Below, piece after piece: positions 4,805 through 50,882 of a stretch of 64,000 nucleotides of DNA. Made by a program: the position numbers and the translations under genes. The notes under the pieces were generated by a model. That model searched no databases. It worked only from the letters and a program-made list of their open reading frames with translations, and was not told the DNA's origin. Source of the DNA: an uncultured Bacteroidota bacterium (GTDB lineage Bacteria; Bacteroidota; Bacteroidia; Chitinophagales; Chitinophagaceae); the NCBI GenBank assembly GCA_903929425.1, contig CAIYUO010000058.1, positions 51,368 to 115,367 of the forward strand, written 5' to 3'. Each line of letters starts with the position of its first letter. The stretch's first letter is position 1.

Positions 4805-4817
4805 AAGCAAGCATTTA

Positions 4818-4831: not shown

Positions 4832-4955
4832 AACATCTAATTTATACATTTTATAATAAGTTGCCATCATGTTGTGTCCTGCATGTTTCAACAAAATTTA
4901 TACATCCACCAGAAATGAATATTTTTTCCTAATTTAATACCTCAATACTCGATTT

Positions 4956-19370: not shown

Positions 19371-20531
19371 TTAGATGCTTTTACTCACGCCAAGTTCTAA
19401 TCCTCTTAATTCTGCTAGCCCTTTTAGCCTTCCTATTGCACTATATCCAGGATAAGTGGTTTTATGTAAATCATCCAGCATTTGATGGCCATGGTCTGGA
19501 CGCATTGGGATTGAAATATTTCGACGTCTCATTAATTGAACCACTTTTTTCATGACTTCATACATGTCGGTATCGCCAGTTAAGTGGTCGGCTTCATAGA
19601 AATCACCGTTTTCATAACGCTTTGTATTTCTTAAATGTAGGAAATGAATCCTATCTCCAAATTTTTCTAATAAAGCTGGCACATTATTATCAGGTCTAGC
19701 TCCTAATGAACCAGTACAAAAACACAATCCATTGGCTGCAACATCAACACAATTAACAATATCTGCTAAATCCTGTTCATTACTTACTATTCTAGGCAGA
19801 CCTAATACTGAATAAGGAGGGTCATCAGGGTGAATGGCCATTTTTAACCCGTGGGCTTCAGCCACTGGTGCAACTGCTCTTAAAAAAGCAAATAAATGTT
19901 CCTTTAATTGCATTCTGTCAATGCCTTCATATGTTTTTAAGGCTTCTAAAATTTGTGCAGCTGTAAAACTATCATCAGTTCCTGGCAAGCCCAATAAACA
20001 ATTTTTAAATACATAATCCTTTTCAGCATCGGTCATAGATTCGTACTTATTTTTTGCTCTTTCTAAGTCCTTTGCTGAATATTCTTTTTCAGCATTGGGT
20101 CTTTTTAATAAGTATATATCAAAAACCATGAATTTTTCAAATTCGAAAAATAAGGCCTTACTACGATTCGGTAATGTATAAGCCACATCTGTTCTTAACC
20201 AATCCAAAATAGGCATGAAATTATAAGTGACCACCTTTAAACCACATGCAGCAACATTTATTAAACTAGTTTTATAGTTCTCTATGTATAATTCATATTG
20301 ACCGTTACGCTTTTTTATATCCTCATGTACTGGCAAACTTTCAATAACCGTCCAAGTCATTCCAGCTTCTTCAATTAAAGCCTTGCGTTTATTAATCTCT
20401 TCTACTGTCCAAACTTCTCCCACCGGAATTTGATGCAAAGCGGTTACAACGCCTTCGCAACCTGCTTGTCGTATATCCCATAAGCTTACTTTATCATTTG
20501 GGCCATACCATCTCATTGTTTGATGTAGCAT
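19371..20531 (-). CDS. uxuA: Mannonate dehydratase
   Basis: MRWYGPNDKVSLWDIRQAGCEGVVTALHQIPVGEVW, HPDDPPYSVLGLPRIVSNEQDL, CFCTGSLGARPDNNVP, IHFLHLRNTKR, RPDHGHQMLDD are UxuA motifs. Confidence 0.97.
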   Translation of the reverse strand: MLHQTMRWYGPNDKVSLWDIRQAGCEGVVTALHQIPVGEVWTVEEINKRKALIEEAGMTWTVIESLPVHEDIKKRNGQYELYIENYKTSLINVAACGLKVVTYNFMPILDWLRTDVAYTLPNRSKALFFEFEKFMVFDIYLLKRPNAEKEYSAKDLERAKNKYESMTDAEKDYVFKNCLLGLPGTDDSFTAAQILEALKTYEGIDRMQLKEHLFAFLRAVAPVAEAHGLKMAIHPDDPPYSVLGLPRIVSNEQDLADIVNCVDVAANGLCFCTGSLGARPDNNVPALLEKFGDRIHFLHLRNTKRYENGDFYEADHLTGDTDMYEVMKKVVQLMRRRNISIPMRPDHGHQMLDDLHKTTYPGYSAIGRLKGLAELRGLELGVSKSI

Positions 20532-20693
20532 AAAAAAATATTTTATCTAAGGTATTAAAAAACTGCATTGAGCTGGATTAAATTTTAAAAATTTCAATAG
20601 AATGTATAGATTTACACAATGCACTCTTTTGCATAAATAATGATACCTACATGTTTTCACTAAGCAATAATTTGCATCAAAGAATTAAGAAAT

Positions 20694-22808
20694 ATGAAAA
20701 ATAAATTTATATACATTGTATTATTTCTTATAGCTGCTTCAAAATTTAGTTACGCTGCAGACGGCTATGATTTATGGTTGGGTTATCATAAAATAAATAA
20801 CCCCTCCCTAAATACCCATTATAAAAAAATATTTAGTAGCATTTATTTTAATAATAAGCAAAAAAATGCAACCATAAAAATTATAAAAAATGAATTGTCC
20901 TTGGCTGCGAAATCAATGTTTGAGGTAAACCCCGTTTTTACAAATGATAATATAAATGCTAGTTTGCTTTTTAGGATTGATGAAAATTATAAAGCCATTA
21001 ATGAAGATGGATATGCGATTAAAACTTTAGTGAATAATAGTAAAAATCAAATTGTTATTACTGCAAAAAACGAAGTTGGATTACTTTACGGTTGTTTTGC
21101 GCTATTAAGGTCAATGCAAATGCAAGAAAATCCCAGCACCCTTAATATAATTAGTTCCCCTTCCTTAAAAATTAGAATGCTCAACCACTGGGATAATATC
21201 AATAGGACAGTTGAAAGAGGATACGCGGGTAATTCAATTTTTAATTGGCATACACTACCCGACTATATTGATAAAAGGTACATTGATTATGCAAAAGCCA
21301 ACGCTTCAATTGGCATAAATGGAACGGTTGTTACAAATGTAAATGCAAATGCATTATTTCTGACCCCTGCTTATTTGGATAAAGTAAAAGCACTTGCCGA
21401 AGTATTTAGACCTTATGGTATAAAAATATATTTAACCGCAAGATTTTCTGCTCCCATCGAAATTGGTAATTTAACAACAGCTGATCCTTTAGACACCAAA
21501 GTAAAAAAATGGTGGGCTGATAAAGCAAAAGAAATTTATGATTTAATACCAGATTTCGGGGGATTCCTTGTAAAAGCAAATAGTGAAGGTCAGCCAGGTC
21601 CACAAAACTATAATCGATCACATGCTGATGGCGCGAATATGATTGCTGATGCAGTTGCACCTTATCATGGTATTGTCATTTGGAGAGCCTTTGTATATAG
21701 CAACGAAACTCCAGAAGATAGATTCAAACAAGCCTTTACAGAGTTTAAACCATTGGATGGAAAATTTAATAAAAATGTGTTGGTGCAAATTAAAAATGGC
21801 CCCATTGATTTTCAACCTCGTGAACCATTTCATCCATTATTTGGGGCAATGACAAAAACACCTGAAGTATTGGAGTTTCAAATTACACAAGAATACTTGG
21901 GCCAATCCACTCATTTGGTATATGAAGGCCCCATGTTTCAGGAAGTATTAGAAAGTAAAATAAATGCTACTCAATCAGTTATGGAATTTTTGGAAAATCC
22001 AGTTGCTGGTTTAAGTGGCATGAGTGGTGTTGCCAATATTGGAACTGATATCAATTGGTGTGGCCATCCATTTGCACAAGCTAACTGGTATGCTTTTGGA
22101 AGGTTAGCATGGAATCCTCATAATAGTGCAAAAGATATTGCGAATGAATGGATTCAACAAACCTGGAGTCAGGATAAAAAAGCGGTTGACACGATACAAA
22201 ATATCATGATGGCATCTTATGAAAATATGGTAAAATATATGACGCCTATTGGCTTACATCATATTATGGGAAACGGTCATCATTATGGGCCAATGCCATG
22301 GGGTAATACTTTAAATAGAGCCGACTGGAATCCTGTTTATTATCACAAGTCCGATGCTTATGGAATTGGATTTGATCGCACTGCAACGGGCAGTAACGCC
22401 ATTGCACAATTTGACCCATTTGTACAAAATCAATGGAAAGATAGTAGCACTTGTGATGAAAAATTTTTATTATGGTTTCATCATGTAAGCTGGAATCATA
22501 AAATGAAAAATGGAAATAGTTTATGGAACGAATTGTGTTATCAATATAATGAAGGCGTAATGGGCGTGCGACAAATGCAAAAGCAATGGAAGCAAATTGA
22601 AACAAGTATTGATCAGGATCAACATCATCAAGTCTCACAATTATTAGCCATTCAATTGAAGGATGCCATTTGGTGGAGAGATGCTTGCTTACAATATTTT
22701 CAAACATTTAGTAATCAACCGCTACCTAAAGGTTATCCTTTACCCGCACATGATTTAAAATATTATCAATCTTTAAACTTTCCTTACGCCCCAGGCAATG
22801 GAAAATAA
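20694..22808 (+). CDS. Alpha-glucuronidase (GH67), exported
   Basis: Signal peptide; DGYDLWLGYHKI, LRMLNHWDNINRTVERGYAGNSIF-like segment, GGFLVKANSEGQPGPQNYNRSHADGANMIADAVAPYHGIVIWRAFVY, MGNGHHYGPMPWG. Confidence 0.96.
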   Translation: MKNKFIYIVLFLIAASKFSYAADGYDLWLGYHKINNPSLNTHYKKIFSSIYFNNKQKNATIKIIKNELSLAAKSMFEVNPVFTNDNINASLLFRIDENYKAINEDGYAIKTLVNNSKNQIVITAKNEVGLLYGCFALLRSMQMQENPSTLNIISSPSLKIRMLNHWDNINRTVERGYAGNSIFNWHTLPDYIDKRYIDYAKANASIGINGTVVTNVNANALFLTPAYLDKVKALAEVFRPYGIKIYLTARFSAPIEIGNLTTADPLDTKVKKWWADKAKEIYDLIPDFGGFLVKANSEGQPGPQNYNRSHADGANMIADAVAPYHGIVIWRAFVYSNETPEDRFKQAFTEFKPLDGKFNKNVLVQIKNGPIDFQPREPFHPLFGAMTKTPEVLEFQITQEYLGQSTHLVYEGPMFQEVLESKINATQSVMEFLENPVAGLSGMSGVANIGTDINWCGHPFAQANWYAFGRLAWNPHNSAKDIANEWIQQTWSQDKKAVDTIQNIMMASYENMVKYMTPIGLHHIMGNGHHYGPMPWGNTLNRADWNPVYYHKSDAYGIGFDRTATGSNAIAQFDPFVQNQWKDSSTCDEKFLLWFHHVSWNHKMKNGNSLWNELCYQYNEGVMGVRQMQKQWKQIETSIDQDQHHQVSQLLAIQLKDAIWWRDACLQYFQTFSNQPLPKGYPLPAHDLKYYQSLNFPYAPGNGK

Positions 22809-22817
22809 TTTGAACAC

Positions 22818-23567
22818 ATGAAAAATAAAACACAACCTATTGCCATTATTACTGGAGGAGGATCTGGTATTGGAATGGCTATTGCTGAAACATTTGTAAA
22901 AAACAAAGTGAAAACAATTATCATAGGCCGAGACCAAAAAAAATTAAAAGCAGTACAAGCAAAATTGGGTAAGGATTGTGAAATTCAATCCTTTGATTTA
23001 AAGGAAAGAAAAAACATTCCTGCACTAGTGAACAAGCTAGTAAAAAAATATGGTGCCATTGATATCCTTATTAATAATGCAGGCATCAATATGAAAAAGC
23101 CATTGATTGAAGTAAGTGATGAAGATTTTGATAATATTATTGAAACCAACTTACAATCGATATTTACATTAACGCGAGAAGTGGTAAAACATATGTTGCC
23201 AAGAAAAAAAGGAGCTATTATAAATATTAGTTCGATGGCTTCTCAGTATGGAATTCCAAAAGTAATTGCCTATACAGCATCAAAGGGTGCCATTGAAGCA
23301 ATGACAAGGGCCTTAGCTGTCGAGCTTTCGCCAAATGGTATTCGTGTTAACTGCATTGCACCTGGATTTATTGCTACTGAGATGAGTGCGAAGGCTTTAA
23401 ACAATGATCCTGAACGCAAAAACAAAGCACTAGGTAGAACGCCAATGGGATATTTAGGAGAACCAAAAGACATTGGAACTACTGCATTATTTTTAGCGAG
23501 TGACGCTGCTAAATATATTACAGGTGTTATTTTACCTGTCGATGGCGGCAACTCAATTGGTTTCTAA
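22818..23567 (+). CDS. Short-chain dehydrogenase/reductase (gluconate 5-dehydrogenase / uronate reductase-like)
   Basis: IITGGGSGIGMAIAETF, LINNAGINMKKPLIEV, YTASKGAIEAMTRALAVELSPNGIRVNCIAPGFI, LPVDGGNSIGF. Linked to GH67 and UxuA. Confidence 0.9.
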   Translation: MKNKTQPIAIITGGGSGIGMAIAETFVKNKVKTIIIGRDQKKLKAVQAKLGKDCEIQSFDLKERKNIPALVNKLVKKYGAIDILINNAGINMKKPLIEVSDEDFDNIIETNLQSIFTLTREVVKHMLPRKKGAIINISSMASQYGIPKVIAYTASKGAIEAMTRALAVELSPNGIRVNCIAPGFIATEMSAKALNNDPERKNKALGRTPMGYLGEPKDIGTTALFLASDAAKYITGVILPVDGGNSIGF

Positions 23568-25100
23568 AAAACCTGCGTCATTTGTTGTATGGTTAGATGC
23601 GCAATAAAAACCATATTTTGCGCCCACCCATAAGCCTTCCACTGCGTTGAAATTTGCTGGGATTTCAACAAATGTTTTTCCATCAATACTATATTCAAAA
23701 TTAGCCTTAGCGCCTGCTTGTAAATTCATACGAATGTAAATAGATGCTGGCGCATTGGTTAATAAGGTAGTCGATTTTTCAAGATTACCTTTATCGGCTT
23801 TGTTACACTCAATATAGTTAAGCTGTAAGCCATTCACTGTTTTTAACAATTCAACAGCTGCATATGATTTTCCAAATATAATTAGACCTGCTCTTTCCCC
23901 AATTTGCAAGCTCGTAAATTTAAGTTCCTTAGTTATCGTAAATTTTTCAGCAGGCAACTTTGCTAAATACAAGGCTGGAAAATTCCAAAGGTTAGGCATG
24001 CTGTCATTTTTAAAAACAGCATAATGTCTGAAACCATTTCCATATGCCATTCTCCAAGTACTGAAGGGTGTTGCATTCCATTGAAAATTTAAAGAAGTCT
24101 CTTTCGATAAATTTAAGTCGGCATCATTGGCATTGTTCAAATGTGGATGTAGCATTTTTGGAATGGCATAAGTAGATACTGGGTTACCTATACCATCATT
24201 ATCAGAATCAATACCAATTATTGGCCAATCATTTTTCCAGGTCATGGGTTGCAAATGTGTAATTCTTCCATAAGGACCTTTATCTTGAAAATGTAAAAAC
24301 CAATCTTCGCCTGTGTTTGTTTGCACCCATGCGCCTTGATGTGGACCATTGGTATTTGAATTGCCTTGCTCCATTACTTTTTTTCTTTCATAAGGGCCAT
24401 ATATATTTTTTGACCTTAATACAATTTGCCAACCAGTAGTCACTCCACCTGCTGGTGCAAAAACATAATAATAACCATTACGCTTATAAAACTTAGGCCC
24501 TTCAACTGTTGGGTCTATTCCATGTCCATCATAAATAAGTTTACCCTCGCTCATTATGTTTGTTCCAGCCGCATTCATTTCTTTTAATGCCAATACCGAT
24601 TTAATGCCAGCTCTACTTCCTGCATAGGCATGTATTAAATACGCCTTGCCATCCTCGTCCCATAATGGACAAGGATCAATTAATCCTTTTCCAGCCAATA
24701 CTAATACAGGCCTACTCCAAGTACCCAAAATGTTTTTTGATTTAATCATGTATATACCAAAATCAGGATCAGGGTAATAAATGTAAAACTCATTATTGTG
24801 AAAACGAATACTTGGCGCCCAAACACCTGCGCCATGTTGGACTTTTTTATAATAGTCAGCGGGAACATTATTTTTTAAGGCATAACCCATTAATTGCCAA
24901 TGGACCAAATCGGGGGATCGTAAAATAGGTAAGCCAGGAACTGATGTAAAACTTGATGCAATCATATAAAACCAATTACCTACTCGAATGGCATCAGGAT
25001 CACTATAATCCTCGTGAATAATAGGATTGGTATATGTTTGTGACTTTACGCCTCCAAAAAAGGATAAACAAAATAAAAATGCGATCAATAATTTTTTCAT
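23553..25100 (-). CDS. Glycoside hydrolase family 43 with C-terminal concanavalin-like domain, secreted
   Basis: YTNPIIHEDYSDPDAIRVGNWFYMIASSFTSVPGLPILRSPDLVHWQLMGYAL, GVWAPSIRFHNNEFYIYYP, GIDPTVEGPKFYKRNGYYYVFAP. Confidence 0.95.
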   Translation of the reverse strand: MKKLLIAFLFCLSFFGGVKSQTYTNPIIHEDYSDPDAIRVGNWFYMIASSFTSVPGLPILRSPDLVHWQLMGYALKNNVPADYYKKVQHGAGVWAPSIRFHNNEFYIYYPDPDFGIYMIKSKNILGTWSRPVLVLAGKGLIDPCPLWDEDGKAYLIHAYAGSRAGIKSVLALKEMNAAGTNIMSEGKLIYDGHGIDPTVEGPKFYKRNGYYYVFAPAGGVTTGWQIVLRSKNIYGPYERKKVMEQGNSNTNGPHQGAWVQTNTGEDWFLHFQDKGPYGRITHLQPMTWKNDWPIIGIDSDNDGIGNPVSTYAIPKMLHPHLNNANDADLNLSKETSLNFQWNATPFSTWRMAYGNGFRHYAVFKNDSMPNLWNFPALYLAKLPAEKFTITKELKFTSLQIGERAGLIIFGKSYAAVELLKTVNGLQLNYIECNKADKGNLEKSTTLLTNAPASIYIRMNLQAGAKANFEYSIDGKTFVEIPANFNAVEGLWVGAKYGFYCASNHTTNDAGFLETN

Positions 25101-25940: not shown

Positions 25941-26735
25941 CTATAATAAATATTTTCTAAGTCCTTTATATTTATTATTTCTAATGGCCTCAATGACTAC
26001 CTCTGTATTTAATAAGGCTCCCTCTTTATTGGTGTGCGTATGGTCCTTTGGAAAGAATTTATTTACAGCGCTTTCTCCTAGAGCATCATATCTGTCAGCA
26101 ATATTGCTGTTTAAATCAATGTAATAGGCGCCGGTTTCTTCAGCGATTTGCATAGCCCAAACGCGGTAATCATTGCTTCTGTTTATTTTCCCGTTTTCCC
26201 AATTATTTCTGGGGACCAATGAACAAATAATAGGGATGCCTCCCTTTTGTTTTGTTTCATTTACAAATTTTCGAAGATACCAACCGTAGGTATGAACCAC
26301 TTCATTCATTTTTCTGATAGGATTATATATTGCAACACTATCATCACTAATCCCTTTCATCGTTCCTCTTGCTCTTGCAGTATCATCCAATGGACTTGCA
26401 TCATTATGTCCAAATTGGATTAGCACAAAATCCCCTTTTTTTAAATCATTTAAAATTTTATCCCATCTTTTATCCGTAATAAAGGTTTTTGTACTTCTGC
26501 CACCAATCGCATGATTCTGAATGTCAATTTTAGTCGTGTCAAAGTAGGGTTGTATCAAGCTACCCCAACCCCATAAAGTATCCTTGCCGGTTCCGTCGCC
26601 ATTTTTAACCGTAGAATCCCCGATAATATACAATACTGGCTTAGTGTGCTCGTAAATAACAAAGGAGCTTAGTAAGATAAATGCAATGAATAAAACTAAA
26701 TGAAAACGCAAATTAAAATGGGAAGTTTTTTTCAT
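25941..26735 (-). CDS. Rhamnogalacturonan acetylesterase-like SGNH hydrolase (CE12), second copy
   Basis: LYIIGDSTVKNGDGTGKDTLWGWGSLIQPYFDTTKIDIQNHAIGGRSTKTFITDKRW, FVLIQFGHNDAS, FPKDHTHTNKEGALLNTEVV. The ATG at 26735 precedes the signal-like segment. Confidence 0.92.
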   Translation of the reverse strand: MKKTSHFNLRFHLVLFIAFILLSSFVIYEHTKPVLYIIGDSTVKNGDGTGKDTLWGWGSLIQPYFDTTKIDIQNHAIGGRSTKTFITDKRWDKILNDLKKGDFVLIQFGHNDASPLDDTARARGTMKGISDDSVAIYNPIRKMNEVVHTYGWYLRKFVNETKQKGGIPIICSLVPRNNWENGKINRSNDYRVWAMQIAEETGAYYIDLNSNIADRYDALGESAVNKFFPKDHTHTNKEGALLNTEVVIEAIRNNKYKGLRKYLL

Positions 26736-26782
26736 AACAATAAATTTATCAAATTTTGGACGAACTTTTAACACTTTAATTA

Positions 26783-29700
26783 CTACTTAATATAACGAAC
26801 TGGTTTAATCACAATATTTCCGTCAAGTCCTGATGGTTGTATTGGCCATGTTGAAGCATCAAAGCCTTTGTAGTTAATATTGACAAAATTAATTTCATGA
26901 TACTTGCGCCATGCTATATTATTCCTGTCCATATATGCAATTCTATTGGCCATTAAATTAGCCACTTCAATATCAATAGTATTATCCCCTTCCTTTAAGA
27001 ACTTACCAATATTTAATTGATAGGGAACACTCCATATATACCCAGCTTCTTTTCCATTCACTGTCACTTTTGCTGATTCGTATAATTTATCCAATCCTAA
27101 AATATAATCATCGGCATCTTTTTTACGAACCTTAAAATGTGTAGCGTAAGTGCCCGCACCCGAAAATGATTGCGTTAAGGAGTCGTTTGTGATATTTGTC
27201 CAAGGTTGTAAATGATCTAGCATTTTATCAGATGGAGTCAATGGACCACCATTTGAAAAATGCAAATTCCATTGACCACTTAATAAAATAGGCTCACTTG
27301 AATTTGTATAATACGGATAAGGTTTATCCTTAACCGTATTTAAGGAGGCTTTTACAAATAGGGTTTCGCCTGGTTGCAATTGAAGTTTAACCAATGTTGT
27401 ATTACCCTGTTTAGTATATTTTGCAACCCCCGTTTCGCCATTTAATGGATTCAATATTAATACTGAATTACAGCTAATATTCAATGCAATATCCTTGTCA
27501 ATTGTTTTTGAAGTATGATTTACGATATAATAATACTTGTCACCATTCACTTCTCTTCTAATAAATTTAAGGCCTAGGTCAGTTAAAGTTTCACGATTTA
27601 ATTGAATGTATTCCAAACCCTTTTCAACATTATTTGCAATTACAATACGACCACTTCCAACTAACGCTTCTTTGATGTCCTTATTTATAGTTGTAACGTT
27701 TAAACTTTTGATGAATACATTTAACTGCTCATTTACATTCCCTTGCAATTGTAATCCCGGCAACTGCATTGGAAAGTCTTGTAAAATCACCGTCATGCCT
27801 TTTGATGCTAAAGCAATTATGTTTTTAAAAGTTGACATGGGCATGTATTTACTTTTAGAGACAAGCAATACTTTATATTTAGCTCCCTTTTCTGAAATTT
27901 TTATTTCATGATTTTGCACCATTGCTTCTGCTAACATTTTATCAGAGGCGAAATCAATACTATAACCTATAGATTGAAGTGAACTTACATTTTTATAAAA
28001 TGGGGTGGGATGCAGCCATTCGTCAACATTGTGCACTTTAAAAGTCATGTCTAATCCCTTTTCATTAGACCATTGATCATACACTGGCCAGTAGGCAAGT
28101 ACCTCATTGTCGGCATTACCTAATTGCAAAATAGACTGACATCTTGTAACATAATCATTTAATCCACCAATATGAGGCCATAAACTATTGGTAGGAACAA
28201 AATTTACAGACGCATAAAACAACCAGCCCGGCCACGCTACATGGTAAGGACTATAGGTAGTGCCATGATAAAAAACATGATTTACGCCCGCCAAAAAGGT
28301 TTGTTCTAATTCAGGTTTACATTGACTCCATGATGTTTTGAAATGTTCGGTCAACCAGGTAAAAGTCTCACTTGAAACAAATGGTTTTCCCATAGTATGC
28401 GCAGCAGAAGAGGCGAATTTTAACATAATAGGGTCAGGATCTACATTTCTAACATCTGCAGCATCTCGACGAATACCAGGTATATCAAACTTGCTGCTTC
28501 CAAATGTTTCAATTTCGGGAATATCAACGGCTGCATATAAGTCTAATATATTACCTGGAGAACCATGTGATTCATTGGTATTTTTGGATTGCTTGTTATT
28601 TGCCCACTTTGTAAATTGATTGGCAAAATTTTGTAATAACAAATCGTTTATCGTTTCCCGATAATCGCATTTTATTTTTGATGTAATGGAATCGGAAACA
28701 TTGTTAACTAAATATTTTAAATAGGGTCGTAAATCATAGCCTCTTAACAATTTAAAATCATCAAAGAAATTAGGCGTCCAATCAGCATCAAAAACTTCAT
28801 AACTATCATTATAAAAAGAACGTACTCCATGATTACTATTTCCAAATGCAGTATCAAATGTTTTAAAATAGTTTGTCACTGCGTTTGCTGAAAAGTGATC
28901 TAACACCCACCCTTCTCCCCCATAAGCAGCACGTTTTACTTTTTGTCCAGTTTTGCCAATGAACGCAGCATATATGTCCCAATTGCCTTTAACATCTGGC
29001 CAACTTAATTGACCATCCATCCCCACTTTGTTGGTTATATCTAACACATTCCCTATTGAATCATATGCCATAACAGTGGACAAATAACTGCCTAGCACAA
29101 TAGCTTGGTTTTTGTCTTTATATAAAATTTTATCGTTAAACGGTTGCGATGCATTGATACGATATGGTTGTACAATTAATTTCGTTGCAGCTTCCTCCCT
29201 TTTTACTTGAGCTCCACCAATTGGCCAACCTGTTCCTACGGAAATATCAATGCCCATATGAAGTTTCGACGCTTTTTGTGTTGTATAGTCCAATACCGAC
29301 ATCCAATTTGGACTGAGGTAATTAATATATTTATCTTCAAAACCAATGGCACCATATATTGGAACGACAGCTGCTCCACCAAAACCAGCTTTGTTTAAGA
29401 ATGTTAATTGTTGGTCTAATCCTTCTTTATCAACTGCACTTCCCATCCACCACCATCTCGTCCAAGGTTTAGCCTCCTTATTTACTATTGGCCATTGCGT
29501 TATTTTAAATTGTGGATCTTTTTTTATTTCAACTGCATACACATTATCGGTCCCTTCAAAATTGGCCCTAAAAATTATCCACTTTCCGTCAGGGCTAAAA
29601 TGCACATTTGGTTCTAAGCGATAGTTTTGATGTTGCATGTTTACCAATCGCTCACTTTGTAAACTATCACCTGTTGGTTTAAAATAATAAATCCATTGTC

Positions 29701-30769
29701 CATCTTTTGCCCTGGCAACTTGGCCAGGATCTCCACCATCACCACAAAATTGATTCAAGTCATCTGAGATATTAAAGTGAATACTCCACTCATCTCTTTT
29801 CAATTTATACTTAACTTCTTTACCGGTTTCAACATGAGTGCCTGCAACAAAAAAGTTTTCTCCTTTAGGTTGTTGTAAATCAAACCAAATGGTCTTACCG
29901 TCAGGCGCAAACCATTCATGACCTGCAATTTCCATATCCATTGTGCGCTTGTGCATTAACTTAACCTCCTTGGTGTTAATATTAATATGCCATATCCTAT
30001 CCAATTTATGCCAAGGACCTTCATGACAAAACATTAATAAATTAGGTTGTGTTGGTGAAAATTGAACATGTCCAAGCCAAGTGGGTTCCGTATGAATTAC
30101 TTCAAGTTTGCCTGTTTTAATATTGATGGTAAATAAATCATTAGGTTCATGTGCGTCAAAAATTCGATCAAAAAAATCTTTCTTATCTGGATATTTTTTT
30201 CCAATCGCAATTTGTGCATCGCTTGCTTTTGAACCTGCTAGCATCGTTTCATCTGAATTCACTGTTGCAATATATCCTTTGTAATTTGCTGGAAAAACAA
30301 ATAACAATTTTGATTTTTTAGTTTTCAAGTTGGCAACAAATACACTGTCATTGTATTGGTAATATAAATTTTGGTATTTCTTGCCTACAATTTCTCCAGT
30401 AATTCCTTTTTCAGCATATGTTACTTGCTCAATGGCAAGACTTTTTAAATTAACTGTAAAAGCATTTCTTAAAGACTGCTCGATTCCAAAAAAAATCATT
30501 TTAGATTCTTTTGTAACTGGGTCAATGATAAAAGGGTTATTGTGAAAATAAAAACTAATGTTATTGCCTGCTCTTCGAGTTAGTTTAACAATTTTATGTC
30601 CCGTACGATTATCAATCCATTCATTAGGCATGGTACCATTGCCTGTCTCTAAAACAGGAATTTTTGAATTCAATGGCGATAAATTATTTTGTGCAAATGA
30701 CTTTAAAGAGAAGATGGCTAACAATAAAATAAAATTCAACCTTAAACATAATTTACACATAGTATCCAA
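26783..30769 (-). CDS. Fusion protein: N-terminal oligogalacturonate lyase-like beta-propeller (PL22) plus C-terminal alpha-L-rhamnosidase (GH106)
   Basis: Residues ~30-415: WLGHVQFSPTQPNLLMFCHEGPWHKLDRIW, GHEWFAPDGKTIWFDLQQPKG, NVHFSPDGKWIIFRANFEGTDNVYAVEI (PL22). Residues ~425-1328: KEAKPWTRWWWMGSAVDKEGLDQQLTFLNKAGFGGAAVVPIYGA, DISVGTGWPIGGAQV, SYEVFDADWTPNFFDDFKLLRGYDLRPYL (GH106). Single uninterrupted ORF. Confidence 0.88.
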   Translation of the reverse strand: MDTMCKLCLRLNFILLLAIFSLKSFAQNNLSPLNSKIPVLETGNGTMPNEWIDNRTGHKIVKLTRRAGNNISFYFHNNPFIIDPVTKESKMIFFGIEQSLRNAFTVNLKSLAIEQVTYAEKGITGEIVGKKYQNLYYQYNDSVFVANLKTKKSKLLFVFPANYKGYIATVNSDETMLAGSKASDAQIAIGKKYPDKKDFFDRIFDAHEPNDLFTINIKTGKLEVIHTEPTWLGHVQFSPTQPNLLMFCHEGPWHKLDRIWHININTKEVKLMHKRTMDMEIAGHEWFAPDGKTIWFDLQQPKGENFFVAGTHVETGKEVKYKLKRDEWSIHFNISDDLNQFCGDGGDPGQVARAKDGQWIYYFKPTGDSLQSERLVNMQHQNYRLEPNVHFSPDGKWIIFRANFEGTDNVYAVEIKKDPQFKITQWPIVNKEAKPWTRWWWMGSAVDKEGLDQQLTFLNKAGFGGAAVVPIYGAIGFEDKYINYLSPNWMSVLDYTTQKASKLHMGIDISVGTGWPIGGAQVKREEAATKLIVQPYRINASQPFNDKILYKDKNQAIVLGSYLSTVMAYDSIGNVLDITNKVGMDGQLSWPDVKGNWDIYAAFIGKTGQKVKRAAYGGEGWVLDHFSANAVTNYFKTFDTAFGNSNHGVRSFYNDSYEVFDADWTPNFFDDFKLLRGYDLRPYLKYLVNNVSDSITSKIKCDYRETINDLLLQNFANQFTKWANNKQSKNTNESHGSPGNILDLYAAVDIPEIETFGSSKFDIPGIRRDAADVRNVDPDPIMLKFASSAAHTMGKPFVSSETFTWLTEHFKTSWSQCKPELEQTFLAGVNHVFYHGTTYSPYHVAWPGWLFYASVNFVPTNSLWPHIGGLNDYVTRCQSILQLGNADNEVLAYWPVYDQWSNEKGLDMTFKVHNVDEWLHPTPFYKNVSSLQSIGYSIDFASDKMLAEAMVQNHEIKISEKGAKYKVLLVSKSKYMPMSTFKNIIALASKGMTVILQDFPMQLPGLQLQGNVNEQLNVFIKSLNVTTINKDIKEALVGSGRIVIANNVEKGLEYIQLNRETLTDLGLKFIRREVNGDKYYYIVNHTSKTIDKDIALNISCNSVLILNPLNGETGVAKYTKQGNTTLVKLQLQPGETLFVKASLNTVKDKPYPYYTNSSEPILLSGQWNLHFSNGGPLTPSDKMLDHLQPWTNITNDSLTQSFSGAGTYATHFKVRKKDADDYILGLDKLYESAKVTVNGKEAGYIWSVPYQLNIGKFLKEGDNTIDIEVANLMANRIAYMDRNNIAWRKYHEINFVNINYKGFDASTWPIQPSGLDGNIVIKPVRYIK

Positions 30770-30770
30770 T

Positions 30771-32138
30771 TTATGGTTTGATAGCTTGATATGCCTTTAA
30801 AGAAATTAATGAAGTAGGTAATGCTTTTGTATTCCAGGCTTCATGGATGACCATGGCCGCTCCCCTTGAAGAACTTTGAGGTAATAAAGCTGCAAATATT
30901 TGCAATGATGGAAATACATAAGCCAATAAACTCATGTAAATCGCATTATTACTAAAACCTCCGTCGACAAAAATGGTTTTAATTTCTTGATTTAAAATTA
31001 AAGAAGTAGAAAAATATTGTTGCTTTATGATATCCAATATAAAATCATGATAAGCTGCGTCATAATGAGCATAATTATTCAAATCCTTTGTTGAAAAGGA
31101 AGAAGGATTGACACCAACTGGGATAACTGTATCCAAATCGCCTAAATTGGATTGATTAATTAAGCTAAAATCAAATAATATTGATTTATAATAATCTAGT
31201 GGCTTGTTAAAATGTTTTGCCAATTTAACGATTACCTGCTCATGTTCATATCCTGCAAATAATCTTGCAGCTTTTACTGGCTTTCCAGTATATCCCATAT
31301 AACATAAACAATCATTTTCTAATTGATGGTGTGTTAATGGTGTGTCATTAAATGGATTCAAACTTATACACCAGGTACCGGTAGAAATTAAAATGAAGGG
31401 CTCTTGAAAATATTTTAAATAGGGAATTAGAGCTGCACTACTATCATGCAAACCAATACCAACATGTATATGCTTGTGATTGAAGTTTGCATTTTTTGTT
31501 AGATTAGAAGCCGTAATTTTCGCTAAATACTGATCCATGCCTTCCTGAATTACCCACTCATGGTATGTTTGTTTTTTATAATCCCATAAAGCGGTATGAC
31601 ATCCGATACTTGTGATATCAGTAGCGGCATATTTTGTAAACAAAAAACTAATGTATTGTGGCAGGTGCATAATTGCCGTTACTTTTTCAAACAGTTCAGG
31701 TTGTTCTTGCTTGAAACGATAAAGCTGCAAACCTGAATTTAAACTTCCTAATTTTGGTGAAGCCGTATGTATATAAAAATCGCCTTCTTTGTTGTATTTT
31801 TCTTCAAAAGCTAATTGAAGTTTTTCGGGATAACCTTTTAAATAATTATATAATGGCGTTAATGGATTACCATCCTTGTCAACATACATAAAACTTGCGC
31901 CATAGGCCGAAAAATTAATGGCTTTAATATCGAAATCGGTATGATCAATAACATATTGTATGCTCTCTAAAGCCCATTTTGTTAATGCGATGATGTCCTC
32001 GCAAACTTCCCCATCCTCATCCAATGTTTCATTAAGTAATTGCGATTGTTCAAAAACAACTTCGTATTGCTCATTAAACAACAAGCATTTTTTATTGGTC
32101 TTACCAATATCCAATATAGCAATTACGGGTACAGGCAT
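30771..32138 (-). CDS. rhaB: FGGY-family carbohydrate kinase, probable rhamnulokinase
   Basis: IAILDIGKTNKKCLLFNE, HVGIGLHDSSAALIPYLKYFQEPFILISTGTWCISLNPFN, IFVDGGFSNNAIYMSLL; lies next to rhaI/rhaM/rhaT. Confidence 0.85.
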   Translation of the reverse strand: MPVPVIAILDIGKTNKKCLLFNEQYEVVFEQSQLLNETLDEDGEVCEDIIALTKWALESIQYVIDHTDFDIKAINFSAYGASFMYVDKDGNPLTPLYNYLKGYPEKLQLAFEEKYNKEGDFYIHTASPKLGSLNSGLQLYRFKQEQPELFEKVTAIMHLPQYISFLFTKYAATDITSIGCHTALWDYKKQTYHEWVIQEGMDQYLAKITASNLTKNANFNHKHIHVGIGLHDSSAALIPYLKYFQEPFILISTGTWCISLNPFNDTPLTHHQLENDCLCYMGYTGKPVKAARLFAGYEHEQVIVKLAKHFNKPLDYYKSILFDFSLINQSNLGDLDTVIPVGVNPSSFSTKDLNNYAHYDAAYHDFILDIIKQQYFSTSLILNQEIKTIFVDGGFSNNAIYMSLLAYVFPSLQIFAALLPQSSSRGAAMVIHEAWNTKALPTSLISLKAYQAIKP

Positions 32139-32152
32139 ATTTAAATCGTAAA

Positions 32153-33427
32153 TTATAATCCTGTGGCGAAGGATTTTTCACCTCTTGTTTTAATTAGCTT
32201 AGCTCTTACATCTGCAGCTCTAAACAAATGCAGTGGATCTAAAGCAGCACCTGCTCTTATTCTTGCTTCTGCAACAATTGTTCTCACATCAGTTCTAAAG
32301 GCAGCTTGTAAAATTTCCTGACATTTTACCGTATCTAAGTTTAATTGAGCTTCTTTTAAAGCCTTAACATCAACTAACAATGCTTGTGCATATGCGATTT
32401 TAATGGCTTCCACAGATTGCAATAAATCTTCTAATGGATCTTTCACATTATGGCTTGCATCAATCATCCAACCTAGATCCTTCGCATGGTTCATGCTTCT
32501 GGCATCCATACCTTCCACTAATTCATTGAAAATTAAAAATAATTTATAAGGATCAATGCTTCCAACGGTTAAATCATCATCGCCGTATTTAGAATCATTG
32601 AAGTGAAAGCCTCCTAACTTTTGCTCATTTAAAAGCAATGCTACAATTTGTTGAATATTAGCATTGGGTAAATGATGTCCTAAGTCAACTAATGTGTATG
32701 CTTTTTTTCCCAGCTTAGTTGCATACAATAAAGATTGACCCCAGTCTCCAACTGTCATTGAATAAAAATTAGGCTCAAATGCTTTGTATTCAATAAACAT
32801 TTTCCAATTATCCGGCAAGGCTTTATAAATTTCTTCTAAACCTTGTAAAGTATTATTAAATGCATTCCTGAAATTCAATTGTCCTGGAAAAGATGACCCG
32901 TCAGCTAGCCAAACTGTCAATGAATCAGAACCTAAGTCGATACCATGTTGTATCACCTCTATATTGTGGTCAATGGCTTGTTGGCGTGTGTTTTTACTTA
33001 CATGCTGTAATGATCCAAACTTATAACTATGTTTTTGATTTGGTTGATCCTGAAAAGTGTTGGAATTCATGGCATCAAACTTTAACCCATAGTCAGCAGC
33101 CAAATTTTTAATTGCCTTAGGATTTGCAGGAATATCCCATGGGATATGTAATGAAATAGCCCCACTCGATTTATTTAAAGCATGCATCAAACCAATGTCT
33201 TCCATTTTTTCTTCCAAATTCCGCGGCTCTCCACCACCTGCAAATCGGCCAAATCTTGTACCACCCGTGCCTAAAGCCCATGAGGGAATAGCAATTTGAA
33301 AGGCTACTAATTTTTCAATGATTGCTTCAACACCAACCATTTCCTCTTTTAATAGCGCATACTTTTTTTGATGCTTTACCATTAAGTCAGCATTATGACT
33401 TTCAATTATTTTTTTATCAACTAACAT
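32153..33427 (-). CDS. rhaI: L-rhamnose isomerase (RhaI / TIM-barrel type)
   Basis: IAIPSWALGTGGTRFGRFAGGGEPRNLEEKMEDIGLMHALN, ISLHIPWDIP, LTVWLADGSSFPGQLNFR, GHHLPNANIQQIVALLL, DASHNVKDPLEDLLQSVEAI. Confidence 0.93.
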   Translation of the reverse strand: MLVDKKIIESHNADLMVKHQKKYALLKEEMVGVEAIIEKLVAFQIAIPSWALGTGGTRFGRFAGGGEPRNLEEKMEDIGLMHALNKSSGAISLHIPWDIPANPKAIKNLAADYGLKFDAMNSNTFQDQPNQKHSYKFGSLQHVSKNTRQQAIDHNIEVIQHGIDLGSDSLTVWLADGSSFPGQLNFRNAFNNTLQGLEEIYKALPDNWKMFIEYKAFEPNFYSMTVGDWGQSLLYATKLGKKAYTLVDLGHHLPNANIQQIVALLLNEQKLGGFHFNDSKYGDDDLTVGSIDPYKLFLIFNELVEGMDARSMNHAKDLGWMIDASHNVKDPLEDLLQSVEAIKIAYAQALLVDVKALKEAQLNLDTVKCQEILQAAFRTDVRTIVAEARIRAGAALDPLHLFRAADVRAKLIKTRGEKSFATGL

Positions 33428-33472
33428 AATTCATTTATTTAAAACCCTTAGGTACGGTATATAATTATTTCC

Positions 33473-33787
33473 TTAAGGTAAATAAAACACTTCTGATAGT
33501 GAAATATTTACAGGAGAATTATCAGGATTCGTTTCCATGATGTCCTGCATGTGACTCCACCACTTTTTCATAATAGGCTGTGATGGTAAACTTTCGAGCG
33601 CTACCGTATCATGAATCTTGAAATAAGCGAATAAAATAAGCGTTTCCGCATCAAAGAAAATGGAATACTCACTAATGCCCGTGTCACTTAATAATTTCAC
33701 CAGTTCAGGCCATATTTCGTCATGTCTTTTTTTATATTCTTGTTCAAAACCTTTTTTCAAAAACATTTTAGATCCTATTCTTTTCAT
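33473..33787 (-). CDS. rhaM: L-rhamnose mutarotase
   Basis: 104 aa; GFEQEYKKRHDEIWPELVKLLSDTGISEYSIFFDAETLILFAYFKI, MKKWWSHMQDIMETNPDNSPV. Confidence 0.95.
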   Translation of the reverse strand: MKRIGSKMFLKKGFEQEYKKRHDEIWPELVKLLSDTGISEYSIFFDAETLILFAYFKIHDTVALESLPSQPIMKKWWSHMQDIMETNPDNSPVNISLSEVFYLP

Positions 33788-33837
33788 AACACCTGATTTT
33801 CTGTTTTAAAAATGCTTTATCCATTTGTCAAATATTA

Positions 33838-35958
33838 TTATCTAACAAATGCAGCTGCTACTCCTCCGTCAACATTTAAAACCCCTCCAGTCGTTTTGCT
33901 TAATAAGCCGCCAACAAAAGCATAACAAGCATTTGCAATATCTTCTGGCAAAATAATTTCATTTAATAAAGTACGTCCTGCATAATAAGCAGGCAATTCT
34001 TCCACTTTAATTCCGTAAGCTTTTGCTCGGCCTTCCGCCCATCCTCCACTCCATATATTACTGCCTGCAATCACCGCATCGGGATTCACTACATTCACTC
34101 GAATTTTATCCTTTCCTAACTCAGCTGCATTTAATCGACTCAAATGAAATTGAGCTGCTTTTGCTGAACCATAACCAGCGTTATTAGGGCCACTAACTAA
34201 TGCATTTTTACTTACAATATTGATAATATCACCACCCATATTTTGCTTACGCATTATTCCAACTGCATTTTGTGTTACCAACATTTGTCCCTTCACTAAA
34301 ACATCATACAATAAATCCCAATCTTGAATGGTATGATCTTCAATTGTTTTTGAGATAGATAAACCTGCATTATTTACAATTAAATCCAATCCGCCAAAAC
34401 GCAATGCTGCTTCTTTAGCGGTTGCTTGAATTGTTTCAGCGCTGGTAACATCCAATATGCTTGAAGCAACAACATCCTTTCCAAATAAGGCTATAAATTC
34501 TTGTTTTGCTTCTTCTAATCGCTCGGCATTATTATCGGATAATAAAACGCATGCACCTTCACTCGCAAATTTCTTAGCAATGGCTTTGCCAATACCACCG
34601 CCACTTCCAGTGACTAAGGCAACTCGACCACTTAATGCTTTTGGCTTTGGCATTCTTTGCAATTTAGCTTCCTCTAATAACCAATATTCAATATTAAAGG
34701 CTTCTTGTCTTGGCAATGAAGTGTAGGAAGAAATGGCTTCAGCCCCTTTCATTACATTGATTGCATTAATATAAAATTCAGCAGCTACCCTTGCAGTTTG
34801 CTTGTCCTTTGCAAAACTAAACATACCAACGCCTGGATACAATATGATCACCGGATTCGCATCACGCATAGCAGGACTATTAGCATGTTTGCATTTATAA
34901 TAATAGTCGGTATACATTTGACGATAAGCAACAAATAAAGGCTCGATTTTTTGTTTGATGGAAGCGATATCAGCTAAATCATCAGCAGCTCCCAAGTTTA
35001 AAACCAATGGTGAAATTTTAGTTCTCAAAAAATGATCAGGACAGCTTGTACCCAAAGGGGCTAAACGAGCTAAGTCATTTGAATTGATAAATTCTAAAAC
35101 ACGCGCATCGTCCGTAAAATGACCAATCATTTTTGTTTGAGCCGAACAAAAGCCTCTTAAAATAGGCGCTAATGCCGCTGCTTGAGATAATCGTTTTTCT
35201 GCATCCAATGATTGTATTTTTTGACCCGCAAAAACGGTTGATTGTTTTGCAATATTTTCTTGCAAGTATTCCGCACATTTTTCAATTACTTCTAAAGTGT
35301 TGATATAGCTTTCATAAGCGGTGTCTCCCCATGTAAATAAACCATGTGAACCTAACATGATACCTATAATGCCAGGGTTATTATCCAAGCATTGTTTTAA
35401 TTGTAATCCTAAATCAAACCCCGGCTTTTGCCAAGGCACCCAACCAATTTTTCCGCCAAATAATTCCTTGGTAATTTTTTTACCATCCTTACTTGCGGCA
35501 ATCGCAATCGCAGCATCAGGATGTAAATGATCAATATGTTTGAACGGCAAAAAACCATGTAAAGGGGTATCAATACTTGGCGCTTTTGATGCTAAATCAT
35601 AAATACAATGATTAAACAACTCCACCATTTCGTCCTCATGCGCTAACCCACGATAAACATTTTTTAAACTTCTTAAGCGGTCAACATATAATGCAGCCAA
35701 GCCATTTCTTTGCATGGTCCCTAAATCACCACCACTTCCCTTTACCCACATTACTTCTACCTCCGCTCCCGTTAAAGGATCCTTTGTCATCGCTTTGCAG
35801 GATGTATTACCTCCACCATAGTTTGTTAATCGCAAATCGGCTCCTAATAAATTAGAGCGATAAACCAACAAGGCCACTTCGTCACCTGTCATGGTCGCCG
35901 CTTTTTGCTTATCCCACAAATAACTTACATGCTTGTACTTTGTCTCTAAATTTTTCAT
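33838..35958 (-). CDS. Bifunctional aldolase / short-chain dehydrogenase (rhamnulose-1-phosphate aldolase / lactaldehyde dehydrogenase type)
   Basis: N-terminal class II aldolase (NYGGGNTSCKAMTKDPLTGAEVEVMWVKGSGGDLGTM, HGLFTWGDTAYESYINTLEVIEKC); C-terminal SDR (GRVALVTGSGGGIGKAIAKKFASEGA, NNAGLSISKTIEDH, GYGSAKAAQFHLSRLNAAELG). Confidence 0.95.
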   Translation of the reverse strand: MKNLETKYKHVSYLWDKQKAATMTGDEVALLVYRSNLLGADLRLTNYGGGNTSCKAMTKDPLTGAEVEVMWVKGSGGDLGTMQRNGLAALYVDRLRSLKNVYRGLAHEDEMVELFNHCIYDLASKAPSIDTPLHGFLPFKHIDHLHPDAAIAIAASKDGKKITKELFGGKIGWVPWQKPGFDLGLQLKQCLDNNPGIIGIMLGSHGLFTWGDTAYESYINTLEVIEKCAEYLQENIAKQSTVFAGQKIQSLDAEKRLSQAAALAPILRGFCSAQTKMIGHFTDDARVLEFINSNDLARLAPLGTSCPDHFLRTKISPLVLNLGAADDLADIASIKQKIEPLFVAYRQMYTDYYYKCKHANSPAMRDANPVIILYPGVGMFSFAKDKQTARVAAEFYINAINVMKGAEAISSYTSLPRQEAFNIEYWLLEEAKLQRMPKPKALSGRVALVTGSGGGIGKAIAKKFASEGACVLLSDNNAERLEEAKQEFIALFGKDVVASSILDVTSAETIQATAKEAALRFGGLDLIVNNAGLSISKTIEDHTIQDWDLLYDVLVKGQMLVTQNAVGIMRKQNMGGDIINIVSKNALVSGPNNAGYGSAKAAQFHLSRLNAAELGKDKIRVNVVNPDAVIAGSNIWSGGWAEGRAKAYGIKVEELPAYYAGRTLLNEIILPEDIANACYAFVGGLLSKTTGGVLNVDGGVAAAFVR

Positions 35959-35969
35959 TCCTTTTTTTA

Positions 35970-37031
35970 TTATTTTAATGAATTGCCATAGCCCACCACC
36001 AATACTGATATAATAATGGTTGCGATACCTATCACAATTGTTGTTAACGTTTTTTTACTTACCCCTTTCCATTCTTTTAAAAATAATCCCCACATATTCG
36101 CTACCAATATAATAAAGGCCATATGCAGAATCCATGAACTTGGACCATTGCCTAATCGGCTTTCGCCCATTCCATAAAAAAAGAATTGTAAAAACCAGGT
36201 GGTTCCAGCTAGTGCTGAAAAAATATAATTTTTTAATAATGGAGTTTGCTTATTGGAATAATCACTAAATGTTTTATTTCTTGCATTCAATACCATGCAC
36301 CATATAAAATTTGTCGTGAGACCACCCCATAACAATACTACATAAATAACATTATTGCGATATAAAAATTCACCTTCCCCTGGATGTGCAATTTTCCATG
36401 TATCATTTGCAATGGTTGCCATATTTTGTCCTGCTTCCAAACCAAAATTAAAACAAGCACTCAACACGCCAGATACAATGGCTACAAACATGCCCAATGC
36501 AAACTTATATTCAGTAGACACTTCCTTCATTTCTTTTTCTTTCAACACACCTGCTTTACCACTAATGATAATTCCCAACATACAAATTGCCAAACCTGCA
36601 ATCACTGTTAAACCCCAGCCTGAATGGATCATTGCACTAAATGTGTCTTTACCTTCTACAGGATTAAAATCATAATATATAGCTGGAATAATTGCACCAA
36701 ATACCATGCATAAACCAAGTATCACACTACTTCCTAAGGATACCCCTAAATATCTAACACCTAATCCATAGGTTAGCCCACCAATTCCCCAAAGCACGCC
36801 AAAAGTATAGGTTAACCATAAAGTAGCAGTTGGTGTGTTTTTAATAATATCAGCAAAACCAGGTATTGTTAGGTACGCTGCTAAAGGGGGTACAATTAAC
36901 CATGAAAAAAGGCCACCCACAATCCAAAAACTTTCCCAACTCCATCCTTTAACTTTTTTAAAAGGCATATAAAAACTGCCTGACGCGAATCCACCAATAA
37001 AATGAAAAAGAACGCCAAATAATACTAACAT
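35970..37031 (-). CDS. rhaT: L-rhamnose/proton symporter RhaT
   Basis: MLVLFGVLFHFIGGFASGSFYMPFKKVKGWSWESFWIVGGLFSWLIVPPLAAYLTIP and multiple TM helices; start placed at the ATG at 37031. Confidence 0.95.
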   Translation of the reverse strand: MLVLFGVLFHFIGGFASGSFYMPFKKVKGWSWESFWIVGGLFSWLIVPPLAAYLTIPGFADIIKNTPTATLWLTYTFGVLWGIGGLTYGLGVRYLGVSLGSSVILGLCMVFGAIIPAIYYDFNPVEGKDTFSAMIHSGWGLTVIAGLAICMLGIIISGKAGVLKEKEMKEVSTEYKFALGMFVAIVSGVLSACFNFGLEAGQNMATIANDTWKIAHPGEGEFLYRNNVIYVVLLWGGLTTNFIWCMVLNARNKTFSDYSNKQTPLLKNYIFSALAGTTWFLQFFFYGMGESRLGNGPSSWILHMAFIILVANMWGLFLKEWKGVSKKTLTTIVIGIATIIISVLVVGYGNSLK

Positions 37032-37092
37032 AGGTTTAAATTTCAATAGGAAAAGCAATATTGCGCAATCATCGTAAAGTTAAATATTAGGA

Positions 37093-47105: not shown

Positions 47106-48122
47106 TTATAAATAAGGATCAAGGGTAATTATTTTCCCATGTTCATCGTACTTAATTTCAGCCATTTTAATGGACCGTAAGTGTGTAACCCCTTTTGATA
47201 AACTTGAATCATGATAAAATAAATACCACTTACCTTCAAATTCACAAATAGAATGATGTGACGTCCATCCCACTACTGGGTTTAAAATTCGACCCATATA
47301 GATAAATGGCCCATAAGGATTGTCCCCAATGGCGTAACATAAATAATGGGTGTCTCCTGTTGAATATGAAAAATAATATTTGCCATTGTATTTATGCATC
47401 CAAGAAGCTTCGAAAAAACGTCTGTCATTATCTTCAGCTAGCAATGGATTACCCGCTTCATCTAAAATGATAATTTCCCTTACCGTTTCAGCAAATTGCA
47501 ACATATTATCAGTTAACATCGCTACCCTTGGCCCAAGTGCAGGCAAACCAGCTAAAGGTTCTTTATGGTTTATATCATAATCATTGTTACGATAGGATTG
47601 TAATTGTCCACCCCATATACCTCCAAAATACATATAATATTTTCCATCGTCATCCATAAAAACGGCTGGATCAATCGAGTAACTTCCATCGATTGGAGCC
47701 ATCTCCGCTATAAATGGTCCTTCCGGTTTGTCACCAACTGCGACTCCAATTTGAAAAATACAATCTGCTTTTTTTGCAGGAAAATATAAATAGTATTTAC
47801 CATTTTTTGTGGCTGCATCTGGGGCCCACATTTGGCGGTCAGCCCATGGCACTTGATTGATATGTAAAGCGACGCCATGATCTATCGCATTCGCATTAGG
47901 ACTTACTAAAGAAATAACATGATAATCCTCCATCGCAAAATGGCTACCCAAATCATCAAAAGGGATACCTGTATCAATATCGTGCGAGGGATAAATAAAA
48001 ATTTTACCTTCAAAAACATGAGCCGATGGATCGGCTGTGAAAATATGATTTACTAATGGCTGCGAAATGGCCCTTTTATTTAAATCATCAAAATCAATAT
48101 GTTCAATACTATCTTCTGGCAT
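47106..48122 (-). CDS. Glycoside hydrolase family 43 (probable beta-xylosidase/arabinofuranosidase), cytoplasmic
   Basis: FTADPSAHVFEGKIFIYPSHDIDTG, WADRQMWAPDAATKNGKYYLYFPA, SIDPAVFMDDDGKYYMYFGG, FFEASWMHKYNGKYYFSYSTG; no signal peptide visible. Confidence 0.93.
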   Translation of the reverse strand: MPEDSIEHIDFDDLNKRAISQPLVNHIFTADPSAHVFEGKIFIYPSHDIDTGIPFDDLGSHFAMEDYHVISLVSPNANAIDHGVALHINQVPWADRQMWAPDAATKNGKYYLYFPAKKADCIFQIGVAVGDKPEGPFIAEMAPIDGSYSIDPAVFMDDDGKYYMYFGGIWGGQLQSYRNNDYDINHKEPLAGLPALGPRVAMLTDNMLQFAETVREIIILDEAGNPLLAEDNDRRFFEASWMHKYNGKYYFSYSTGDTHYLCYAIGDNPYGPFIYMGRILNPVVGWTSHHSICEFEGKWYLFYHDSSLSKGVTHLRSIKMAEIKYDEHGKIITLDPYL

Positions 48123-48148
48123 TCGTTATGTTTTATTCAAACTTACAA

Positions 48149-49615
48149 TTATGTATTACGTCTACTTTTTAAATCGTTTTCAATTTTTAGTTCCATTTTT
48201 TTATCTATTTCGTACCAATATAAAATAGCAGATGCTAAAATGAAAATGACCCCTGGATAAACACTAACAGACATCTTAATTCCTTCAATAGCTGAATTTG
48301 TTTGTTTCGCTAATTCAGCAACATAACCATATTTAGCTAGAATGGCTGCTCCTAAAGAACCTCCAACACTTAATCCAATTTTTAAGCCAAATATCATGGC
48401 TGAAAAAATGATTGCAGTTGCTCGTCTATTATTTTTCCACTCACTATAGTCAGCTACATCGGCAATCATTGCCCATAACAATGGAATGGTAACGCCATAT
48501 AAAAAACCATGGGCCATTTGTGTAATAAAAACGGTGCCTATAGCATCGGGTGAGAAAAAATTAAAGGCAAGTAATGATAAAGCAGATAAAAATAAAAAGC
48601 AGCCGAATATATTTCGTTTTCCAAATTGATCAGCTAATGGTTTTGAAAACATGATACCAACAATCATGAAAATAATACCACCTGCATTAAATAAGCTATT
48701 TGCTGAGGTAGCAGCATCTTTTGGCCACTCAAATTCACCTAGTCCAAGGCCCGCAAGTGAATTATTTAAACCAGCAATAAAATGATTGAATCCTATATTT
48801 TCTAAAAAGTTGGCTTGTGCCGTTTCGTTTAAATAGTACTTGAAATAATAAATGTACATACCCCCCTTCAAAGCCAAAGTGATGAAAACTAAAATGGTCA
48901 ATAACAACATAATAATCCAAGGGATATTTTTTGATAAATCACTTAAATCTGTTTTAACAGATGATTTTTCGGCTTGTACTGGAACAATTCTTTCTTTCGT
49001 GGTAAGAAAGGTGATCAAAAAGCAAACAATACCAGTAATGGCAAAAAACAACATTACTTTTTCAAATCCTACTGCTTTGTCTCCATGTCCTAAGGAAAGT
49101 GCTAAGGGTAATAATAAAGATTGAATAATGAATTGAGCCACCATTACTGCAACAAAGCGATAGGACGAAATACTATTTCTTTCCTTCATATCACCAGTGA
49201 TAACGCCACTTAACGCAGCATAGGGTAAGTTGTTTGCCGAATAAACGATAATTAAAAGAAAGTAGGTTGTAAATGCATAAATTATTTTACCCGTTTCACT
49301 AAAATTAGGAGTAGAAAATGCAAGTAAGGAAATCACTCCAAATGGTACAGCTGTCCATAACAACCAAGGTCTAAATTTTCCCCAACGCGTATTGGTTCGA
49401 TCCGCAATGGCCCCCATAATAATATTAAAGAAGGCACCAAAAAAACCACCTACAAAAATAATTATACTTGCCGTTGATGCTGGTATTTTATAAACGTCAG
49501 TATAGAAATAGGCAAGAAAAGTCATTAAGGTTTGAAAAATTAAATTGGCAGCAAGATCCCCTAAACTATAACCCACTTTTTCTAGTACTGAAATTTTTTG
49601 TGCAGTTGTATTCAT
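48149..49615 (-). CDS. MFS glycoside-pentoside-hexuronide (GPH) symporter
   Basis: EKVGYSLGDLAANLIFQTLMTFLAYFYTDVYKIP, GAIADRTNTRWGKFRPWLLWTAVPFGVISLLAFSTP, ADVADYSEWKNNRRATAIIFSAMIFGLKIGLSVGGSLGA are strong GPH motifs. Confidence 0.95.
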   Translation of the reverse strand: MNTTAQKISVLEKVGYSLGDLAANLIFQTLMTFLAYFYTDVYKIPASTASIIIFVGGFFGAFFNIIMGAIADRTNTRWGKFRPWLLWTAVPFGVISLLAFSTPNFSETGKIIYAFTTYFLLIIVYSANNLPYAALSGVITGDMKERNSISSYRFVAVMVAQFIIQSLLLPLALSLGHGDKAVGFEKVMLFFAITGIVCFLITFLTTKERIVPVQAEKSSVKTDLSDLSKNIPWIIMLLLTILVFITLALKGGMYIYYFKYYLNETAQANFLENIGFNHFIAGLNNSLAGLGLGEFEWPKDAATSANSLFNAGGIIFMIVGIMFSKPLADQFGKRNIFGCFLFLSALSLLAFNFFSPDAIGTVFITQMAHGFLYGVTIPLLWAMIADVADYSEWKNNRRATAIIFSAMIFGLKIGLSVGGSLGAAILAKYGYVAELAKQTNSAIEGIKMSVSVYPGVIFILASAILYWYEIDKKMELKIENDLKSRRNT

Positions 49616-49646
49616 TTTTAAAATTGTAATGATAGTATCTTAGTTT

Positions 49647-50753: not shown

Positions 50754-50882
50754 GACTATCAAATAATTAAATAATTATCGAATATAACCTTTTGATTTAA
50801 ACTGTAATCATTTGTAGTTGAATTTAGATAAAAAATTATAAATCCAACTATAGTTAGTAGAAAAAGCTTTGCAAGTCATTGA

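Follow-up and report, generated by a model that had tools for sequence, protein, structure and literature searches.

The 64,000-nucleotide stretch of DNA analyzed here (hereafter, the window) carries on its minus strand a single ORF, at 26783..30769, in which a PL22-like propeller is joined to a GH106 alpha-L-rhamnosidase. Counted from a TTG codon, the ORF runs uninterrupted for 1328 codons and, as the original prediction had stated, contains no internal stop. An ATG at nt 30760, three codons into the ORF, opens a typical Sec signal peptide, MCKLCLRLNFILLLAIFSLKSFAQ (predicted residues 4-26, 30692..30760 on the minus strand, with cleavage near SFA/Q by inspection), and judged from the sequence is the likelier true start, which would give a protein of 1325 aa. 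Export of the fused protein via this one predicted signal peptide is well supported, and its location is presumably periplasmic. The fusion gene is single copy in its own 2.2-Mb draft genome.

Both modules are complete and undamaged. The seven-bladed PL22-like propeller occupies residues 52-417 (29519..30616, minus strand). Pfam Pectate_lyase22 (PF14583) matches residues 52-414 with 74.2 bits against a cut-off of 30, and by sequence residues 53-416 come nearest, among PDB entries, to two oligogalacturonate lyases, 3c5m and 3pe7. An AlphaFold2 model of residues 30-420, built with 58 homologues, is a confident propeller (pLDDT 93.9) with seven blades like that of the oligogalacturonate lyase YeOGL, and Foldseek of this model against the PDB again returns 3c5m and 3pe7 as top matches, with a TM of about 0.8. 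The GH106 alpha-L-rhamnosidase follows as residues 424-1322 (26804..29500, minus strand). Here Pfam Glyco_hydro_106 (PF17132) matches residues 572-1119 with 229 bits against a cut-off of 29, the nearest PDB entries by sequence are the GH106 structures 5mqm and 6q2f, and the Pfam and NCBIfam profiles place a C-terminal GH2-like jelly-roll portion at 26906..27283 (minus strand). The NCBIfam model AlphaRhamBT4145 (NF049897) spans residues 424-1322 and is covered from position 3 to 896 of 897, with a score of 1003.8 bits that lies below the equivalog cut-off of 1300; the module is of BT4145 type. The last PL22-homologous residue is 417 (nt 29519) and GH106 homology resumes at 424-425 (nt 29500), leaving a linker of ~7 residues (418-424; 29498..29518, minus strand). 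These Pfam, NCBIfam, PDB, and AlphaFold2 boundaries bear out the predicted order of a full propeller followed by GH106, as well as a junction expected near nt 29,490-29,520.

Rhamnosidase activity of the GH106 half is well supported by its family membership, given a full-length module that scores above the PF17132 gathering threshold and retains the catalytic glutamate pair. These residues, Glu658 and Glu801, lie at 28367..28798 (minus strand) and align to E461 and E593 of BT0986, which we take to be the two catalytic glutamates of that enzyme. The first is Glu in all 84 homologues aligned at that position and the second in 80/80. BT4145 itself has been described as an RG-I-specific alpha-L-rhamnosidase (PMC8002723).

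The surroundings fit such a substrate. Directly upstream, at 30771..37058 (minus strand), are the rhamnose catabolism genes for an FGGY kinase, an isomerase, a bifunctional aldolase/dehydrogenase, and RhaT, the first three being syntenic in Sediminibacterium roseum (L062). GDSL esterases come after the fusion gene, the next gene downstream being a rhamnogalacturonan acetylesterase-like member (25941..26774, minus strand) with a downstream homologue also in loci L049, L160, and L161. The same cluster holds two GH88/GH105-type unsaturated-uronyl hydrolase genes (3683-4894 and 5843-7186, minus strand), and the window further encodes a pectinesterase, a GH51-type arabinofuranosidase, and SusC/SusD. 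The recurrent neighbors of homologues elsewhere are GH28, GH88/105, GDSL esterase, GH2, and SusC/D. Taken together, these surroundings point to RG-I and rhamnose use, and the pectin/rhamnose setting that had been proposed is supported. Xylan and glucuronate genes (UxuA, GH67, GH43, GH10, and an MFS transporter) at 19371-25100 and 47106-50762 flank the rhamnose/RG-I genes on both sides, making this a mixed hemicellulose-pectin cluster.

What the propeller half does is less readily read from its family name. H242 of YeOGL was reportedly assigned as the catalytic base by Abbott in 2010, and we take H287, Q350, H353, and H355 to form its Mn site; these identities agree with the 3PE7 sequence. The counterpart of the base, H284, and that of the Mn ligand H287, H331, are found at 29777..29920 (minus strand), and both are invariant in the clade of 105 propeller sequences. 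The other three Mn-site positions (29606..29623, minus strand) are occupied by Y383, E386, and N388 in place of Q350, H353, and H355; E386 and N388 are again invariant, and Y383 is kept in 104/105. Further invariant residues are H390, R258, H76, H234, and H273, and H249 is, like Y383, nearly so. The expectation that PL22 catalytic residues would be conserved thus holds for H284 and H331 but not for three of the four ligand positions, which are substituted clade-wide.

This is not the pattern of a decaying enzyme. PF14583 matches 59/59 clade members, and wherever 95% or more of the members agree at a column (105 columns), the window copy has the consensus residue. With the fold and the presumed base kept and three of four metal ligands exchanged throughout the clade, a changed enzyme is indicated. 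The clade is probably a functionally distinct subfamily, and our best guess is that the propeller is a lyase acting on RG-I oligosaccharides with a remodeled carboxylate/metal site. A narrower version, in which this E-P-N-x-H clade is a distinct lyase subfamily with a rebuilt Mn site that acts on the Rha-GalA or GalA-Rha linkages of RG-I, so that the fusion releases rhamnose by elimination and hydrolysis together, is put forward only tentatively. We found no biochemical characterization of any member of this clade.

Two other functions for the propeller must be weighed. One, which we consider unlikely, is that it has lost its lyase activity and serves the rhamnosidase as a carbohydrate-binding or structural module. 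The altered Mn site, a fold common to non-enzymatic propellers such as TolB, and its absence or reduction beside GH106 in the related genomes G294 and G010 would all agree with such a role. However, 9 of the 11 inspected positions (His, Arg, Glu, and Asn) are invariant in the 105 sequences and the remaining two nearly so, which is enzyme-like, and nearly all clade members are separate proteins rather than modules. Distinctly unlikely, in our view, is the function first proposed, a true Mn-dependent PL22 oligogalacturonate lyase acting on di-/oligogalacturonate, in which case the fusion would couple homogalacturonan-oligomer lysis to rhamnose removal. The PF14583 score above cut-off, the fold match to 3pe7 and 3c5m, and the retained H284 and H331 are what one would expect of it, but the exchanges of Q350 to Y, H353 to E, and H355 to N are (near-)invariant, PL22-like proteins more distantly related within the phylum retain the His-x-His pair of the Mn site, and the neighbors are RG-I and rhamnose genes. 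Because three of the four Mn ligands are replaced throughout the clade, the name “oligogalacturonate lyase” that a Pfam match would suggest is probably misleading, and we retain the reading of a changed lyase on RG-I oligosaccharides.

In relatives, the propeller and the GH106 enzyme are two neighboring genes for exported proteins. Most relatives of the propeller, about 410 aa long and from Bacteroidota, are exported as stand-alone proteins. They too have a signal peptide, so its presence is not special to the fusion. At 36 of the 72 testable loci, a GH106 homologue starts no more than 600 nt downstream of the PL22-like gene on the same strand, and GH106 genes next to stand-alone PL22-like genes have signal peptides of their own. 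In the nearest relative (G897, locus L049), which is of the same genus as the window, the genes are separate and their products are 72% and 64% identical to the propeller and GH106 halves. Between the conserved flanks of the junction, L049 has 121 nt versus 36 nt in the window. The 85-nt shortfall covers the stop of the first gene, the greater part of the spacer, and the entire GH106 signal peptide, and for this reason a point sequencing error or a missed stop is ruled out. The PL22-like gene, as predicted for a natural fusion, now stands in place of the deleted GH106 leader. The linker residues DPQFKIT are probably translated from what was once spacer DNA. For both halves, dN is well below dS against L049, a signal that mostly predates the fusion and comes with dS near saturation. 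A misassembled or chimeric junction is very improbable: the draft genome is in 110 contigs and the fusion is seen in one genome only, but the join is in frame, links a domain end to the point where the mature second protein would begin, and has lost exactly what a viable fusion must lose, and the order of the genes on either side is matched in G897 and G294.

On balance, we favor a real, lineage-specific fusion in which neighboring genes of an operon for rhamnogalacturonan-I (RG-I) utilization were joined, and the propeller half of which is probably a lyase. It is a new domain architecture of known domain kinds, made by the ordinary joining of operon neighbors. Within this genus, the locus exists in four states: separate (G897), fused (the window), with a C-terminal propeller remnant (G010), and propeller-less (G294). 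In G010 (L003 / L161), whose genome is one contig, all that is left of the PL22-like gene is ~85-89 C-terminal residues, with a GDSL esterase gene on one side and, on the other, a GH106 gene that encodes a signal peptide of its own; this relative is in the process of losing the propeller. No propeller was found beside GH106 in the syntenic locus of G294, nor in G812, where synteny is less. Given the propeller-less G294 locus and the G010 remnant, the propeller is not essential for rhamnosidase function.

In a check for the same architecture elsewhere, neither 104 full-length homologues nor 147 genomes of the genus yielded a further PL22-GH106 fusion. In G816, G835, G896, and G358, open frames of 1368-1391 aa seemed to span both modules, but on direct translation these proved to be distinct ORFs divided by a stop. 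In its GH106 region, G816 (L136) matches S. roseum L062, which makes Sediminibacterium the probable genus. An alignment that combined stand-alone PL22-like proteins with GH106 proteins was dropped, as its GH106 rows were misaligned onto the propeller. A literature search, with most subscription journals outside its reach, found no paper on a PL22-GH106 fusion.

Other joined genes occur in these operons. Two Bacteroidota MAGs encode a GDSL esterase fused to the N-terminal side of this PL22-like domain (L083:283-2220 and L085:5242-7182), and a polysaccharide deacetylase is joined N-terminally to it at L007:1495-3417 (minus strand). At L050, a deacetylase-like gene is a separate ORF immediately upstream of the PL22-like gene. 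In Puia dinghuensis, a 1357-aa GH106-GH28 fusion (L069:7142-11212) lies immediately downstream of a separate PL22-like gene. The merging of neighbors (GDSL-PL22, deacetylase-PL22, and GH106-GH28) thus recurs.

We propose that a net deletion of ~85 nt, which took with it the stop of the propeller gene, the bulk of the spacer, and the signal peptide of GH106, gave rise to a single exported, presumably periplasmic, bifunctional protein. Its GH106 half, with Glu658 and Glu801 for acid/base catalysis, would cleave alpha-L-rhamnose from the ends of RG-I oligosaccharides. The propeller half would most likely act by histidine-based beta-elimination, its substrate being a short RG-I oligosaccharide that contains a uronate; H284 would take the C5 proton of the uronate, and the carboxylate would be held, with or without a metal, by a site that includes H331, E386, and N388. 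Fusion would set the two activities at 1:1 and spare one export signal, with no channeling implied. A model of the joined protein, supported by read-through rows from adjacent in-frame PL22-like/GH106 gene pairs, shows two domains on a low-confidence linker at residues 421-423 (pLDDT 78, pTM 0.63) and is too weak to tell how the domains face each other. Co-localization is therefore the sole benefit of fusion with support, and we claim neither channeling nor the processive action once suggested, for which we found no support.

The fusion serves as a Rosetta-stone clue that ties the exported PL22-like group to RG-I rhamnose removal. The effect of fusion on RG-I turnover lends itself to a comparison of the window protein with the naturally unfused pair of G897/L049. 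The more durable lead is the propeller clade itself, which is widespread, apparently uncharacterized, and has replaced metal ligands.

It is worthwhile setting the fusion beside known systems. The fungal PL42 L-Rha-alpha-1,4-GlcA lyase FoRham1 is a seven-bladed propeller that frees rhamnose from a uronate by means of a His acting as base-acid (PMC8377490), and its active site is metal-free with an Arg neutralizer (PMC8377490). It was not among the PDB fold matches listed by Foldseek for the window propeller and is offered as a functional model only. The PL22 oligogalacturonate lyases YeOGL (3PE7) and VPA0088 (3C5M) resemble the propeller in fold (TM about 0.8), PF14583 membership, the proposed base His, and one Mn ligand. 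In contrast to them, the window propeller, about 21-22% identical over the structural alignment, is exported and fused to GH106, has Tyr/Glu/Asn for the Gln/His/His of the Mn site, and sits in an RG-I rather than a homogalacturonan context. BT4145 and BT0986 (5MQM/5MWK) are, like the window protein, full-length GH106 enzymes with both catalytic Glu, whereas the window GH106 is without a signal peptide of its own and has an N-terminal propeller. The adjacent pairs of other Bacteroidota (e.g., L049, L051, and L062) encode these two proteins within RG-I/rhamnose clusters, on one strand and with the propeller gene likewise first, but as two ORFs with two signal peptides, the GH106 homology beginning about 70-400 nt past the first stop.
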